Shown here in pieces: positions 52,930 through 62,512 of a stretch of 64,000 nt of DNA. The stretch lies in the NCBI GenBank assembly GCA_015062115.1, contig SUVG01000004.1:124001-188000 (forward strand), in the 5' to 3' direction. The DNA comes from Elusimicrobium sp. GTDB lineage: Bacteria > Elusimicrobiota > Elusimicrobia > Elusimicrobiales > Elusimicrobiaceae. Both the position numbers and the translations under genes were made by a program. The notes beneath the pieces were generated by a model. It saw nothing but the letters and a program-made list of their open reading frames with translations, was not told the origin of the DNA and searched no databases. Position 1 is the first letter of the stretch. Every line of letters starts with the position of its first letter.

Positions 52930-53011
52930 GCGCAGGTGGCGGAATTGGTATACGCGTGCGTTTGAGGGGCGCATGCCGCAAGGCTTGAGGGTTCGAGTCC
53001 CTCTCTGCGCA
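52930..53011 (+). tRNA. tRNA-Leu (anticodon GAG)
   Basis: A class II tRNA. The acceptor stem GCGCAGG pairs with TCTGCGC, followed by discriminator A. The anticodon stem TGCGT/GCGCA (52957-52961 with 52969-52973) closes on TTGAGGG with anticodon GAG at 52964-52966. A long variable arm (TGCCGCAAGGCT) and the T-arm GAGGGTTCGAGTCCCTC complete it. CCA is not encoded. The integrase gene ends 55 bases downstream, so its 3' part is the likely attachment site. Confidence 0.95.
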
Positions 53012-53059: not shown

Positions 53060-53086
53060 AGCCCAGTTAAATACTGGGCTTTTTTG
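53060..53086 (+). terminator. Terminator of tRNA-Leu inside the integrase 3' end
   Basis: AGCCCAGT/ACTGGGCT stem with TTTTTT on the plus strand. The convergent integrase stop codon lies within the hairpin. After integration the phage DNA therefore supplies the tRNA terminator. Confidence 0.7.
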
Positions 53087-54182
53087 TTGCCGGAAGGTAC
53101 TTAATAGCATCGGATAAGGTGGAGGGAAGCAAATGGGCATATATCTCCGTTGTTTTAATGCTATTATGACCTAAAAGTTTTGAAATCCGATATAAGTCAA
53201 CTCCGGCTTGTGCTAAATGGCTCGCAAAAGTATGGCGCAATTTATGAACGCCACCCTTAAGTCCGCACTTTTTAACAAACTTTTTGAATCGTGTGGTTGC
53301 TATATCCAAAGTTAAAGAATCTCCATAATTATCCACCAATATACGATTCGTACGCCTTGGTAAGTTTACACAATAAAGCAAGTGTTCCCGCAATTCCTCT
53401 GACATGGGAATATCTCTGCACTCGTTGGTTTTAGGTGTCCACCCTTTTTTGGGCTGTATTGAAATAATGTTTTTAGTGAAGTCTAAATCCTTTTCTTCCA
53501 AATAAACCATTTCTCCGCGGCGCAACCCTGCTTGGGCACCCAACATAACCACCGTTTCTTCAAAACAGTAATTTTTGTGCATTTTGGCCATTTCTGCGGC
53601 TTTTTGTCGCATAAGCACAACTTCCTCTACCGTATAAAATTCAACGCGACCACGGGGCGTTTTTAAGCGTTTTACAATACTCCAACGAATTTCAGGCATC
53701 AAATCCCACTCGTTTGCTTTGCGAAAACTGGCTTTGAGAGCCGCCATAACACGATTTATGGCTGTATTACCTAAAATTCCTTTGGGGCGCTTTATTCCTT
53801 TTTGGCTTTTATAATTTTCCTCTAACTTCATGCTTTTTGTTTTAAGCCATATCTTGAAATCTTCCAGAAGGGATATGTTTATTTCGGTTAATTCTCTTAA
53901 ATTGGGTGCAAAAGATTCTAAATAAGAAAACGCGTGTTTGTCTCTATATACTGTCAATGGGGATTTGTTGGCTAGACCCCAATCTAAATACCTGTGCTTA
54001 AATGCTAAATAAGAGGGGGATTGGGTTTTCCCTTTGTTTTCTTCTCTTAATTGCGCCAACACTTCTTGAGAGTATTTTTTATTCTTAAATAAGGCCAGTT
54101 GCTTTCGTTTTCCGTTTTTCATAATAGACCCCCAGTAAACAGGGCTTCCGGCTCTTTTATAAACTGATGGTAATTTATTCAT
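53067..54182 (-). CDS. Tyrosine recombinase integrase (prophage)
   Basis: A 371-residue phage-type integrase. An N-terminal arm/core-binding part (about residues 1-170) is followed by the catalytic domain. The active site shows Arg in GLRRGEM, the lysine region in IQPKKGW, HKLRHTF (His and second Arg), LGHNSIKTTE and Tyr in IYAHLLP. It would insert the element into the adjacent tRNA-Leu. Its start has a GGAGG site. It reads toward the tRNA, as in many tRNA-targeting prophages. Confidence 0.93.
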   Translation of the reverse strand: MNKLPSVYKRAGSPVYWGSIMKNGKRKQLALFKNKKYSQEVLAQLREENKGKTQSPSYLAFKHRYLDWGLANKSPLTVYRDKHAFSYLESFAPNLRELTEINISLLEDFKIWLKTKSMKLEENYKSQKGIKRPKGILGNTAINRVMAALKASFRKANEWDLMPEIRWSIVKRLKTPRGRVEFYTVEEVVLMRQKAAEMAKMHKNYCFEETVVMLGAQAGLRRGEMVYLEEKDLDFTKNIISIQPKKGWTPKTNECRDIPMSEELREHLLYCVNLPRRTNRILVDNYGDSLTLDIATTRFKKFVKKCGLKGGVHKLRHTFASHLAQAGVDLYRISKLLGHNSIKTTEIYAHLLPSTLSDAIKYLPATKKPSI

Positions 54183-56563: not shown

Positions 56564-56655
56564 ATTTTTATTATAGCAATTTCTCAAAATTGCTTTCTCC
56601 ATTATTCTAATTTTAATCCCAAAAATCCAAATTTCAATCTAAAAAGGAGGTTATT

Positions 56656-57678
56656 ATGTTCTTACGAGGAAACATCTATTACGGAGATTGTTACTATCGT
56701 GGCAAAAGATACCGTCCGTCCCTACACACTTCCGATCCGAAAGTAGCCGCTACCCGAGAAAGTGTTTTTGTTCAGTTTTTAGAGGAAAACAATATCACCC
56801 CAAAAGAGGTTCCGCTATGGAAAGATTTTAAGAAATGGTACTTTTGGTACTTGTCTCAAAACCGCACTTCCGGAACGGAGTATATCCATCATACAGCCAC
56901 ACGGCTAATGGAAGAATACCGCACTCCATACTACTTACGCAGCATTACCCCTGATTTTTTATTAAAATTTAAGATTTTTCTACACGAAAAATACCAGGGA
57001 AAATGCCCCGCCGGCCGGAACCGTTATCTTAAAGCCATAAAAGCCATGATGCACACCGCCGAAATGTTCGGCAAAATAGGCATCAAACAAAATTGGGAAC
57101 TGGTTAAAAAGGACGACGAAAACGAAAATCGTACCGAATACCACGAAGTGTTTGAACTTTCCCAAATCAAATCCGCATTAGAAGGGGATTTATTAACGGC
57201 CTTTTTGTTGGGCTGTGAAGAAGGGTTAAGAAGGGGGGAAATAGCCTTCTTATACAAAACAGACTATAACCCCTATACACACACCATAACTATCAGCAAA
57301 AAGGTTGAGTGGAAACCCAAAACGAAAAAATCCATACGAACAATTCCCCTGCGCCCACTCACGGAAGAAGCCATAAAAGCGAGTATTGCAAGAGCCCCAA
57401 AAGAAAGCCCTTACATCATCAATTTAGAGGGAAATCGAGAAAAGTACAGTTATGTAAGCGCGGCATATATACGAGAAACCAAAAAAAAATTACCGCATTT
57501 GCACTGTTATTTGCACAAATTAAGGCATACTTTCGGAAGTTTACTTATACAACAGGGGGTTCACTTAAAAACGGTATGTGATTTAATGGGGCATAGCAAC
57601 ATATTACAGACGGAAAAATATGTTCACTTAGGTCGTTCGCAGTATATTTCGGCCATCAGTTGTTTACCCGAAATTTAG
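56656..57678 (+). CDS. Second tyrosine recombinase/integrase
   Basis: A 340-residue tyrosine recombinase. Catalytic residues: Arg in GLRRGEI, Lys in KKVEWKPKT, HKLRHTF, MGHSNILQTE and Tyr in KYVHLG. The pattern is similar to the leftmost integrase, but the N-terminal part differs. A strong AAAAGGAGG site stands before the ATG. Having two integrases 3 kb apart suggests either a nested element or a second recombination function such as DNA inversion or excision control. Confidence 0.9.
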   Translation: MFLRGNIYYGDCYYRGKRYRPSLHTSDPKVAATRESVFVQFLEENNITPKEVPLWKDFKKWYFWYLSQNRTSGTEYIHHTATRLMEEYRTPYYLRSITPDFLLKFKIFLHEKYQGKCPAGRNRYLKAIKAMMHTAEMFGKIGIKQNWELVKKDDENENRTEYHEVFELSQIKSALEGDLLTAFLLGCEEGLRRGEIAFLYKTDYNPYTHTITISKKVEWKPKTKKSIRTIPLRPLTEEAIKASIARAPKESPYIINLEGNREKYSYVSAAYIRETKKKLPHLHCYLHKLRHTFGSLLIQQGVHLKTVCDLMGHSNILQTEKYVHLGRSQYISAISCLPEI

Positions 57679-57912
57679 CAAACAGGGCACAGGTGGGGCT
57701 CGTTCTCGTCGGTTTGACATTTCCCATAGAGGGAAATTGTCAAAGAGCAATTTAGATCGGCGAGGGCTGGCTTACCCCCGAACGATACCCAAACAAGGGT
57801 GGTGTATAAATTTGCAAAAGCACCTAGGGGTGCTATACATCAAGCAAAAGGCAAGTATCAAGCCGTTAAGCGGCGCTCCGAGCCAGCGGAGTTAACAGAT
57901 ACTTGCCTTTTT
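57679..57912 (+). ncRNA. Candidate structured RNA ending in a terminator
   Basis: A gene-free stretch with many pairings: TTTGACATTTCCC/GGGAAATTGTCAAA (57713-57725 with 57731-57744), enclosed by CTCGTCG/CGGCGAG (57705-57711 with 57758-57764); TGTATA/TATACA with inner GCACC/GGTGC (57803-57839); and a final 14-bp stem AAAAGGCAAGTATC/GATACTTGCCTTTT (57846-57911) enclosing two small hairpins and ending in T. It could be a trans-acting RNA or the 3' end of the recombinase message. No known class recognised. Confidence 0.45.
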
Positions 57913-57938
57913 ATTATAGCAAATGCCTAGGAGAGAGT

Positions 57939-58217
57939 ATGAAAAAAGAACGCATGGCTAAGGCGGTTAAAACAGTAGAAATCGGCGCTCAAACTTACTT
58001 TACTGTGTGCGGGTTGCGTGAACAATTGCCGGGCCGTATTAGTGGAACGCATATAAGTGCTGAACAGATTTTCAAACTTATTAAAGAAGGTATGCCTTGC
58101 TTTAGTTTTAGTGGAAGATATCTGTTTGATTTATCAAAAGTGCAAGATTGGCTGGTTTTAAGACAACCAACTTCGCAACTAAATCATCTTGCCCGGTTTA
58201 CGAAAATCAGAGGATAA
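57939..58217 (+). CDS. Small phage protein, possible DNA-binding/excisionase type
   Basis: A 92-residue basic protein. Residues 35-75 (GTHISAEQIFKLIKEGMPC, then GRYLFDLSKVQDWL) resemble the winged-helix of MerR/excisionase-like proteins, where a helix is followed by a strand pair and 'W' helix. GGAGAGAG precedes the ATG at 57939. It opens the rightward early gene set downstream of the structured region. Confidence 0.6.
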   Translation: MKKERMAKAVKTVEIGAQTYFTVCGLREQLPGRISGTHISAEQIFKLIKEGMPCFSFSGRYLFDLSKVQDWLVLRQPTSQLNHLARFTKIRG

Positions 58218-58223
58218 GAAAGT

Positions 58224-58553
58224 ATGGCTAGAAGAAAAGGCGGGAAGGTGGTTAATCGGCCGTGTAAGCATTGTGGGGAAGTGCTACCTATGGTGGGAAA
58301 GCAGCGCGTGTGCAAAAAGTGTCAACAAGCACAAAAAACCGCTTGGCAAAACGAATACAACCACATTCCTGCGGCCGAAAGAAAAGTCCGTGCAGATAAA
58401 AGAAGGAAAGATTTAGGGCTTACCTTTTCGTTTTCGGGGGGAAAATGGACTTGGCACGCGCCCAATGGGTTATCAAACGGGCCGTTTGATACTATCCGTG
58501 CCGCTAGAAATGATGCCCGAAAGGCCTTTGGGCTTAAGGAGGAAAAGAGATGA
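58224..58553 (+). CDS. Small phage zinc-ribbon protein
   Basis: A 109-residue basic protein. CKHCG and CKKCQ (residues 14-35) form a zinc ribbon. The C-terminal half has a WTWHAPNGLSNGPFDTIRAAR segment resembling AP2-like DNA-binding beta sheets, with 'G.f.t...A...a' spacing, though this is by eye. It starts six bases after the previous gene and overlaps the next as ATGA. Function unknown. Confidence 0.6.
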   Translation: MARRKGGKVVNRPCKHCGEVLPMVGKQRVCKKCQQAQKTAWQNEYNHIPAAERKVRADKRRKDLGLTFSFSGGKWTWHAPNGLSNGPFDTIRAARNDARKAFGLKEEKR

Positions 58554-58687
58554 AAAGATTTTGGCAAGTTTTAACTAAACCGGAAGATTGGCACACCGCA
58601 AGTGCGGTAGTCGTAGGGATTGCCGGAAGTATTTTACTAACCCTGCTTTTTATTAACGCATTTGATTATAATTTCCCGGCGAAATAG
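58550..58687 (+). CDS. 45-aa single-helix membrane peptide
   Basis: A small gene starting at the ATGA overlap with the zinc-ribbon gene; AAGGAGG stands upstream. The product reads MKRFWQVLTKPEDW, then a hydrophobic helix (VVVGIAGSILLTLLFI) and NYFPAK-like end. One membrane pass. It could be a holin-like or accessory membrane peptide; nothing decides it. Confidence 0.6.
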   Translation: MKRFWQVLTKPEDWHTASAVVVGIAGSILLTLLFINAFDYNFPAK

Positions 58688-59081
58688 CACCGGGCGGGCG
58701 TGGATCTGCAACAACCTCCATGGTTAAGTCTACGATACAAGTACAACAACCACGCCCGAGAAATTAAAAATCAAAGTAGTTTTGGTGCCAATCGCCCCCG
58801 ATAAGTTGCGGATAAGCAGTTGCCAAGAGAGCGGGCCGCAAGGGGCCAAAACGAAATGAGAAGGGAGTAATTAACCCTTACGGGTGCGCCCGTTATAGCG
58901 CACGATTTGCAGTAAGGAAGGGCCGACACCTTCCTAAATCCAAAAGTCGGGTGTTCTAAACTCAAACTTGTAAGAAAGTAAAAAGGAAAAAACTATCCTG
59001 CCCCCACTGACCGTTTGGAGGTGGGGGTAAATTTTAACAAATGAAAAACGGCAGGCCGAATTTGCCGCTTATAGGGTAATT
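58688..59081 (+). other. Gene-free stretch with strong inverted repeats
   Basis: Nearly 400 bases with no convincing gene. GGGCGTGG/CCACGCCC (about 58693-58700 with 58751-58758) could close a 65-base structure. GGGCC-GCAA-GGGGCC, GTGCGC/GCGCAC and a CCCCCAC/GTGGGGG hairpin (58999-59026) followed by TAAATTTT are further pairings. The last may be a terminator. AAGGAAGG...CCTTCCT also pairs. It may be a non-coding RNA or a packaging/replication site. Confidence 0.4.
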
Positions 59082-59477
59082 ATGAAAATAAACGATGAAA
59101 AACACTTGCTATTCCTACATATTTTAGATGCGATGAAGGTGCAAGCCAACGCACAAGAGTGTTTCCTTGTGGATAGAATCCGCGCGGAGTTTGAAAATAT
59201 GTTTTCTATGGAACTGAATTATGCGCGTACAAGAAATACCGCTGAGTTTGATGAAGATGTTCGTAATGTGAGAGATGCTCTTTATCAAGCCTGCAAAAAG
59301 CACCCTCTTTTTGCGAACTCTCCCGAACAAGGAGTTTGTATTTTGCTCGAAGAGGTGGGGGAACTTGCCCAAGAGGTAAACGATAATTCGCTCGATTATC
59401 AATGGAAATCCAGGGCTTATGAGGAAGCGGCACAGGTTGCTGCTGTGGCGATTCGGTTTATGAGGAAAATAAGATGA
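59082..59477 (+). CDS. MazG-like nucleotide pyrophosphohydrolase-type phage protein
   Basis: A 131-residue helical protein. The C-terminal half shows the all-alpha NTP pyrophosphatase pattern: ILLEEVGELAQEVND (EExxE) followed 12-15 residues later by YEEAAQVAAVAIR. Such phage proteins hydrolyse nucleotides such as dUTP or ppGpp. The N-terminal half is not typical. The next gene starts in an ATGA overlap. Confidence 0.7.
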   Translation: MKINDEKHLLFLHILDAMKVQANAQECFLVDRIRAEFENMFSMELNYARTRNTAEFDEDVRNVRDALYQACKKHPLFANSPEQGVCILLEEVGELAQEVNDNSLDYQWKSRAYEEAAQVAAVAIRFMRKIR

Positions 59478-62410: not shown

Positions 62411-62512
62411 TTGAATTTTTTTAATTTATTTACCACAATATATGTACTTAACGGCCTTACTGGACTTAAGGCTAAAGCACCCTTGGGGTGTTCTGTCCGG
62501 TAAGGTCGTTTT
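62411..62512 (+). promoter_or_regulatory. Possible late promoter followed by leader terminator
   Basis: TTGAAT (62411-62416) and ACAATA (62435-62440) form a weak promoter with 18-base spacing. Directly behind it an 11-bp stem AACGGCCTTAC/GTAAGGTCGTT (62450-62460 with about 62499-62509) encloses GGAC/GTCC and a GCACCC/GGGTGT hairpin and ends in six T. GTG of the terminase gene follows within a few bases. It might be an attenuator or the terminator of the early operon. Confidence 0.5.

Follow-up and report, generated by a model that had tools for sequence, protein, structure and literature searches.

The stretch at about 57733-57921 of the window, by which we mean the whole 64 000 nucleotides of Elusimicrobium sp. 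DNA analysed here, is interpreted as an untranslated leader that heads the rightward early (lytic) operon in a temperate phage of Candidatus Avelusimicrobium, in which the stems P0-P2 would set the read-through of a terminator, P3; judging from sequence alone, we give this reading a probability of about one half. Comparison with relatives shows that the + strand can form P1, P2 and the terminator P3, with P0 in a subgroup, and that the stems are kept by compensatory change. The retention of one shape in 18 prophages while the letters change is strong evidence for termination-based RNA control of the lytic operon in this phylum, by a mechanism that we infer. The phages of Elusimicrobiota have hardly been studied, and a search of titles and abstracts in the literature found nothing on their gene control and no description of such an RNA.

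The window lies in a genome of 1.44 Mb, the genus relatives of which include Candidatus Avelusimicrobium. A prophage starts at a tRNA-Leu gene (52930-53011) and contains two tyrosine recombinases: an integrase gene on the - strand (53067-54182) and a second gene, int2, on the + strand (56656-57678), which ends directly before the structured region. The repeat of the tRNA-Leu end that would mark attR was sought up to the end of the contig and was not found. The structured RNA is followed on its 3' side by a small gene and then by genes for a replication protein and the small subunit of terminase; the first gene (57939-58217, +) encodes a small protein without a Pfam match that is helix-turn-helix-like by eye only. 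Among 90 genomes of the family, int2 has one relative at 50% identity (L004) and others at 37% or less, and in the window it occupies the position of the repressor gene in relatives; it is probably not part of the RNA system. The word TGTTGGGCGCA was noticed 3' of several integrase genes in the family (L018, L019, L022, L027 and L017) and is possibly a common attachment core.

An earlier note had described many hairpins across 57679-57912, the last being a 14-bp stem with two inner hairpins and a T run. The folding energy of this region is -96.1 kcal/mol versus -63.4 +/- 4.9 kcal/mol for dinucleotide shuffles (n = 200), corresponding to z = -6.74, and none of the 200 shuffles is as stable; the reverse strand is likewise structured (z = -5.6), as expected from inverted repeats. 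The terminal stem is exactly as described, its arms at 57846-57859 and 57898-57911 being 100% complementary. Supported by both fold and alignment, P3 (57846-57912, +) consists of this 14-bp stem with a T tail and inner hairpins at 57862-57874 and 57875-57892, and thus has the stable stem and following T run of an intrinsic terminator. The hairpins are real, with one correction: the long 5' hairpin of the minimum-energy fold (about 57690-57781) has no support from relatives, which support a smaller hairpin, P0 (57756-57786), instead. The minimum-energy fold of the full region hides P0, the longer hairpin being 14 kcal/mol more stable (-98.3 versus -84.4 kcal/mol), and for the sequence from 57750 onward the conserved fold with P0 is the minimum-energy fold.

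The best-supported core of the conserved element is located at 57782-57919. On the + strand, P0 was read by comparison, with the sequences inspected by eye, as ATCG-GC, a GGG..CCC hairpin and GAA-CGAT. It is followed, in both fold and alignment, by P1 (57787-57800), a small ACCC/GGGT hairpin with the loop AAACAA, and by P2 (57800-57842), a 9-bp stem, TGGTGTATA/TATACATCA, enclosing single-stranded AAATTTG (57808-57814) and the hairpin AGCACC/GGTGCT (57819-57834). The fold also contains a hairpin TTTGACATTTCCC/GGAAATTGTCAAA at 57713-57744 (+), within which GAAATTGTCAAAGA.CAATT resembles the 5' end of the leader in genome G041.

Direct nucleotide searches matched 2 of 101 related genomes, one of which is the window's own, and gave no match to phage records. 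Genome G047 has a 33-base match to the window and the same three-way-junction terminator with paired changes, located before a helix-turn-helix gene, and the protein encoded at 59082-59477 of the window, which lies downstream in the same prophages, led to G005, G049, G125 and others. A covariance model (R1) built from the G005 and G047 leaders only, with the window left out, was run against 149 genomes and matched the window at 57782-57919 with 48.1 bits (E = 5.8e-12). The same model matched G042 (27.4 bits) and G001 (30.0 bits), and, more weakly (12-18 bits), G127, G049, G026, G007 and G128, in the right orientation and directly upstream of the first early gene. A search with an alignment of the first-gene protein found 13 of the 149 genomes, 11 of them with the leader; G077 and G092 have the protein match but, by reading, no leader.

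A second model (R2), made from ten leaders and scanned over 149 genomes of the order, matched 51 genomes at E <= 1 and recovered all ten training leaders. Its matches outside the training set include G020 (1.9e-10), G041 (8.3e-10), G116 (2.2e-8), G113 (1.9e-6) and G023 (1.5e-4). Eleven further R2 contexts were checked by eye: three are leaders (G020, G041 and G023, the last with a small HTH-like gene downstream), while five with E values of 8e-5 to 9e-4 and three weaker ones are no phage leaders and look like chromosomal terminators, so that R2 values near 1e-4 are regarded as noise. The leaders of G102, G105 and G125 are not recovered by R2 and were identified by synteny and the P2-P3 test described below only. 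In total, 18 leaders were counted. At E <= 0.01, a scan of 340 genomes across the phylum matched 19, which belong to 2 of 100 genera, and the leader family spans prophages of Candidatus Avelusimicrobium and one sister genus; the covariance model can be used to find further members. Protein scans of viral contigs yielded a single related phage contig (L066), the start of which already lies downstream of any leader, and none of 31 regions downstream of integrase relatives (the window's two copies excluded) is leader-like by eye. Eight leaders with P0 make up group A (the window, G041, G020, G042, G001, G005, G047 and G023), and in all eight the flanks CGGC and GAACG surround a variable hairpin; the G041 leader, which is misplaced in the MAFFT alignment, was read from its sequence by eye. 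Positions 60-220 of L049 (G020:C34) are leader-like, with AAACAATTTGAG and a P2-like stem and without a T-run terminator, directly before a gene.

Homologues with covarying stems were found. In an alignment of ten leaders (A8), which was fitted to the structure of the model so that its counts lean towards that structure, changes on both sides occur at 30 of 41 pairs and 98.5% of cells are paired; none of 500 shuffles reaches any of these measures. Both-side changes are present in all ten pairs of P2 and all ten of P3, and pairing falls to 32-46% when the partner is slid by 1-3 columns. The corresponding values for an alignment of four leaders (A6) are 18 of 41 pairs and 97.0%, both alignments leaving out weaker or antisense matches. 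In addition, a model-free test was defined as a stem of at least 7 pairs followed, after 0-8 nt, by a terminator of at least 8 pairs with a T run, both lying no more than 300 nt upstream of the first gene. This tandem arrangement is present in 15 of 15 prophages versus 0.47 expected from dinucleotide shuffles, a count that is not wholly blind, as stems were sought and G049, G026 and G007 were picked with weak RNA-model matches in view; upstream of other reading frames in these loci it occurs in 11 of 344 cases. When P2 and P3 are extended through single mismatches, their non-Watson-Crick pairs comprise seven G-U (about five of them independent), no C-A and five others, which speaks for the rightward (+) RNA, rather than DNA or a leftward RNA, as the molecule that folds.

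A coding function of the leader was considered and is unlikely: an 82-aa frame over the G047 leader is interrupted by a stop codon in the leader of G005, which is 93% identical. A search of Rfam 15 at the gathering threshold over the whole window returned only a tRNA, and over 57600-59100, including the leader, nothing was obtained at E <= 5; the RNA family is absent from Rfam. With covarying homologues, improbable coding and no Rfam match, the suggestion of the earlier note that this could be a new phage RNA is supported, and its remark that no reverse transcriptase, TnpB or Cas gene lies nearby agrees with a scan of ten neighbouring proteins, in which none was matched. The recurrence of the RNA before the early operon of many prophages and the leftward promoter motif at its tail go beyond that note.

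On one side of the leader is the operator/promoter region, and on the other a small first gene, usually of helix-turn-helix type. Among forward promoters, one with TTGACA ranks best in 12 of 15 prophages (all but the window, G001 and G125); it is placed at -231 to -335 relative to the first gene and often inside a palindrome. From the end of P3 to the first gene there are 28-66 nt in the 15 prophages, and no forward promoter stood out in this interval; since it is too short for a promoter wholly downstream, read-through of P3 is likely to be needed. A repressor-type HTH gene is located directly upstream and divergent in 11 of the 15, and the exceptions are the window (int2), G001 and G125 (an HTH gene on the same strand) and G047 (a contig end). 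The first genes match Pfam HTH_17 (E <= 0.0003) in seven of ten tested, with four above the curated cut-off and no match for that of the window.

In the window itself, no good forward promoter was found between int2 and P2, and a scan of the region gave no + strand promoter. A TTGACA at 57714-57719, adjoining CTCGTCG, may be a decayed early promoter. With int2 in place of the repressor and no strong early promoter in view, the window's leader may depend on transcription from upstream or may have partly decayed. The sequence CTCGTCGGTTTGACA at 57703-57719 resembles the junction of the repressor start and TTGACA in relatives, and may be a remnant of an immunity region replaced by int2.

In the proposed mechanism, polymerase from the early promoter would make a structured RNA of about 150-250 nt and would mostly stop at P3, and the lytic genes would be expressed only by read-through. 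P0-P2 would most likely be a cis element that sets this read-through, its partner in antitermination or attenuation being a phage factor, a host factor or RNA polymerase itself, and a further role of the terminated RNA in trans is possible. The proposal also includes a leftward promoter on the tail of P3, described below, that would give an antisense transcript directed to the repressor and integrase genes. A classical attenuator based on a P2/P3 swap was rejected as the conserved mechanism because no alternative pairing of P2 and P3 is conserved; in G042 the 5' arm of P2 could pair with the 5' arm of P3, and in G001 P2 is changed and P3 is unchanged. Nor is the boxA element of lambda nut-type antitermination enriched: the best match to its consensus is no better than in shuffles for 15 of 15 leaders at the P < 0.05 level.

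Several known systems resemble parts of this arrangement. The lambda late leader (6S RNA, tR') has a promoter, a short leader and a terminator before an operon, and lambda pRE is a leftward promoter antisense to the early rightward transcript; the present element is similar in both respects, but belongs to a different operon and has a different structure, with no antiterminator gene identified here and no enrichment of boxA. The int-alpA RNA motif, an Rfam family placed between an integrase and an alpA-type gene, recalls the window, where the leader lies between int2 and a small putative DNA-binding gene without a Pfam match. However, in 11 prophages the 5' neighbour is a divergent repressor rather than an integrase, and the search of Rfam, which should include the int-alpA covariance model, gave no match at E <= 5 over 57600-59100.

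The HK022 put RNA and Gifsy-1 IsrK are the nearest working analogies, put being characterised by binding to RNA polymerase and by suppression of termination without proteins. As described, put is an RNA of about 70 nt with two stem-loops, a conserved sequence and no terminator of its own (PMC9378689). As with put, the leader would be a structured and untranslated part of early phage transcripts that is likely to act at terminators, and it lies downstream of an early promoter (of the TTGACA type in 12 of 15, with the window among the exceptions). Unlike put as described, it comprises P0-P3, extends over about 150-250 nt, ends in a terminator and shows little sequence conservation. The conserved leader is a defined element of 190 nt on which put-like, protein-dependent or antisense control can be studied.

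The short isoform of IsrK is reported to act in trans on the form made by read-through (PMC4825925). The element is similar in being a prophage RNA with a terminator, for which short terminated and long read-through isoforms would be expected, and differs in that trans action on the read-through form is a feature of IsrK. This precedent lends weight to an alternative in which the terminated leader would itself be the product, a trans-acting phage small RNA that pairs with phage or host RNA, read-through of P3 being incidental. The RNA would be discrete, structured and terminator-ended, with a single-stranded GAACG by P0 in all eight group-A leaders and an AATTTG-like sequence in P2 in several. 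However, loop sequences outside group A are not conserved, and the downstream genes in this layout would still need read-through, and we consider this alternative unlikely. The cis-acting leader is favoured; the trans small RNA ranks second, a sense/antisense switch third and a plain terminator fourth.

The sense/antisense switch builds on a leftward extended -10 motif, TGCTATAAT, located at 57913-57921 on the - strand and overlapping the P3 tail. Ten representative leaders have a TTTTATTTTANCA-like sequence after P3, the reverse complement of which is an extended -10 promoter; TGnTAWAAT (TGnTAWAATAAAA) is directed leftward at the P3 tail in 12 of 15 leaders, and the hexamer alone in 14. The window's own genome contains 14 sites of the motif, eight with a reading frame starting 15-50 nt downstream and three (L102, L104 and L110) with a downstream tRNA gene detected by ARAGORN; a frame of annotated length or a tRNA follows at 10-11 of the 14, and neither follows at the leader's own site. 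A transcript from this promoter would begin at the P3 hairpin, cross the leader in the antisense direction and, in most relatives, continue towards the repressor and integrase genes, as from lambda pRE, an activator-dependent promoter with a weak -35 region. The 15-bp direct repeat TTTTTATTATAGCAA (56565-56579 and 57908-57922), which flanks int2 and the leader, is probably the leftward extended -10 promoter present twice, with the copy at 56565-56579 preceding an ImmA-like gene.

In such a switch, the leader and the complementary 5' part of a leftward repressor transcript from P3 would set lysis or lysogeny by pairing or polymerase collision, and divergence of the leader would reflect the immunity type. 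The frequency of the motif at the P3 tail, its position before frames or tRNAs elsewhere in the genome and a leftward repressor in 11 of 15 prophages are consistent with this idea. Nevertheless, it is rather improbable: the -35 region is weak or poor in most leaders, the T tract itself gives the TAAAAT part and leaves the TG as the sole addition, the leftward transcript of the window and of G125 would initially be antisense to int2 or an HTH gene, and the G-U and C-A counts speak for folding of the rightward strand. A more elaborate and quite speculative form is a lysis/lysogeny switch of two overlapping complementary structured RNAs, the self-stopping leader and a leftward transcript from its terminator into the repressor, with phage-specific pairing; if this were true, rapid sequence divergence under a constant shape would mark RNA-based immunity types.

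It could also be argued that P3 is simply an intrinsic terminator with neighbouring hairpins that acts as an insulator, without any regulation by P0-P2, given that P3 is of textbook form and terminators are common between phage genes. This is doubtful, since P1 and P2 covary as well as P3 does (with both-side changes in 10 of 10 pairs of P2) and tandem P2-P3 precedes only the 11 of 344 other reading frames mentioned above. A site of DNA recombination (attP or similar) used by the adjacent int2, suggested by the abutting leader and the flanking TTTTTATTATAGCAA repeat, is very improbable, as the other 17 leaders were not found beside an int2 homologue, the nearest int2 relative (L004) has no leader, two leftward promoter motifs account for the repeat, and G-U without C-A points to RNA.

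The earlier note had also observed that GCACC/GGTGC (57819-57834) recurs in the leader of the terminase gene, and this holds. A terminator-like structure at 62451-62512 (+), before the small terminase gene, contains the hairpin AAAGCACC..GGGGTG (62474-62490), which has 14 specified bases in common with the inner hairpin of P2; with a loop of two or three bases, these two hairpins are the only exact matches within the window. On contig L066, a short leader with a terminator, headed by a TTGACA promoter, precedes the terminase. The sequences hint that the phage may use termination control twice, in the early and late operons, and the early and late leaders of G047 have only a few 8-9-mers in common.

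A second non-coding stretch, at 58680-59080 of the window, forms a GC-rich hairpin cluster between early genes, several of the hairpins having pyrimidine-rich CUCCU-like loops. Counterparts occur at the same place in G005, G047 and G049 (L044 2950-3140, L053 11670-11850 and L045 2235-2610).
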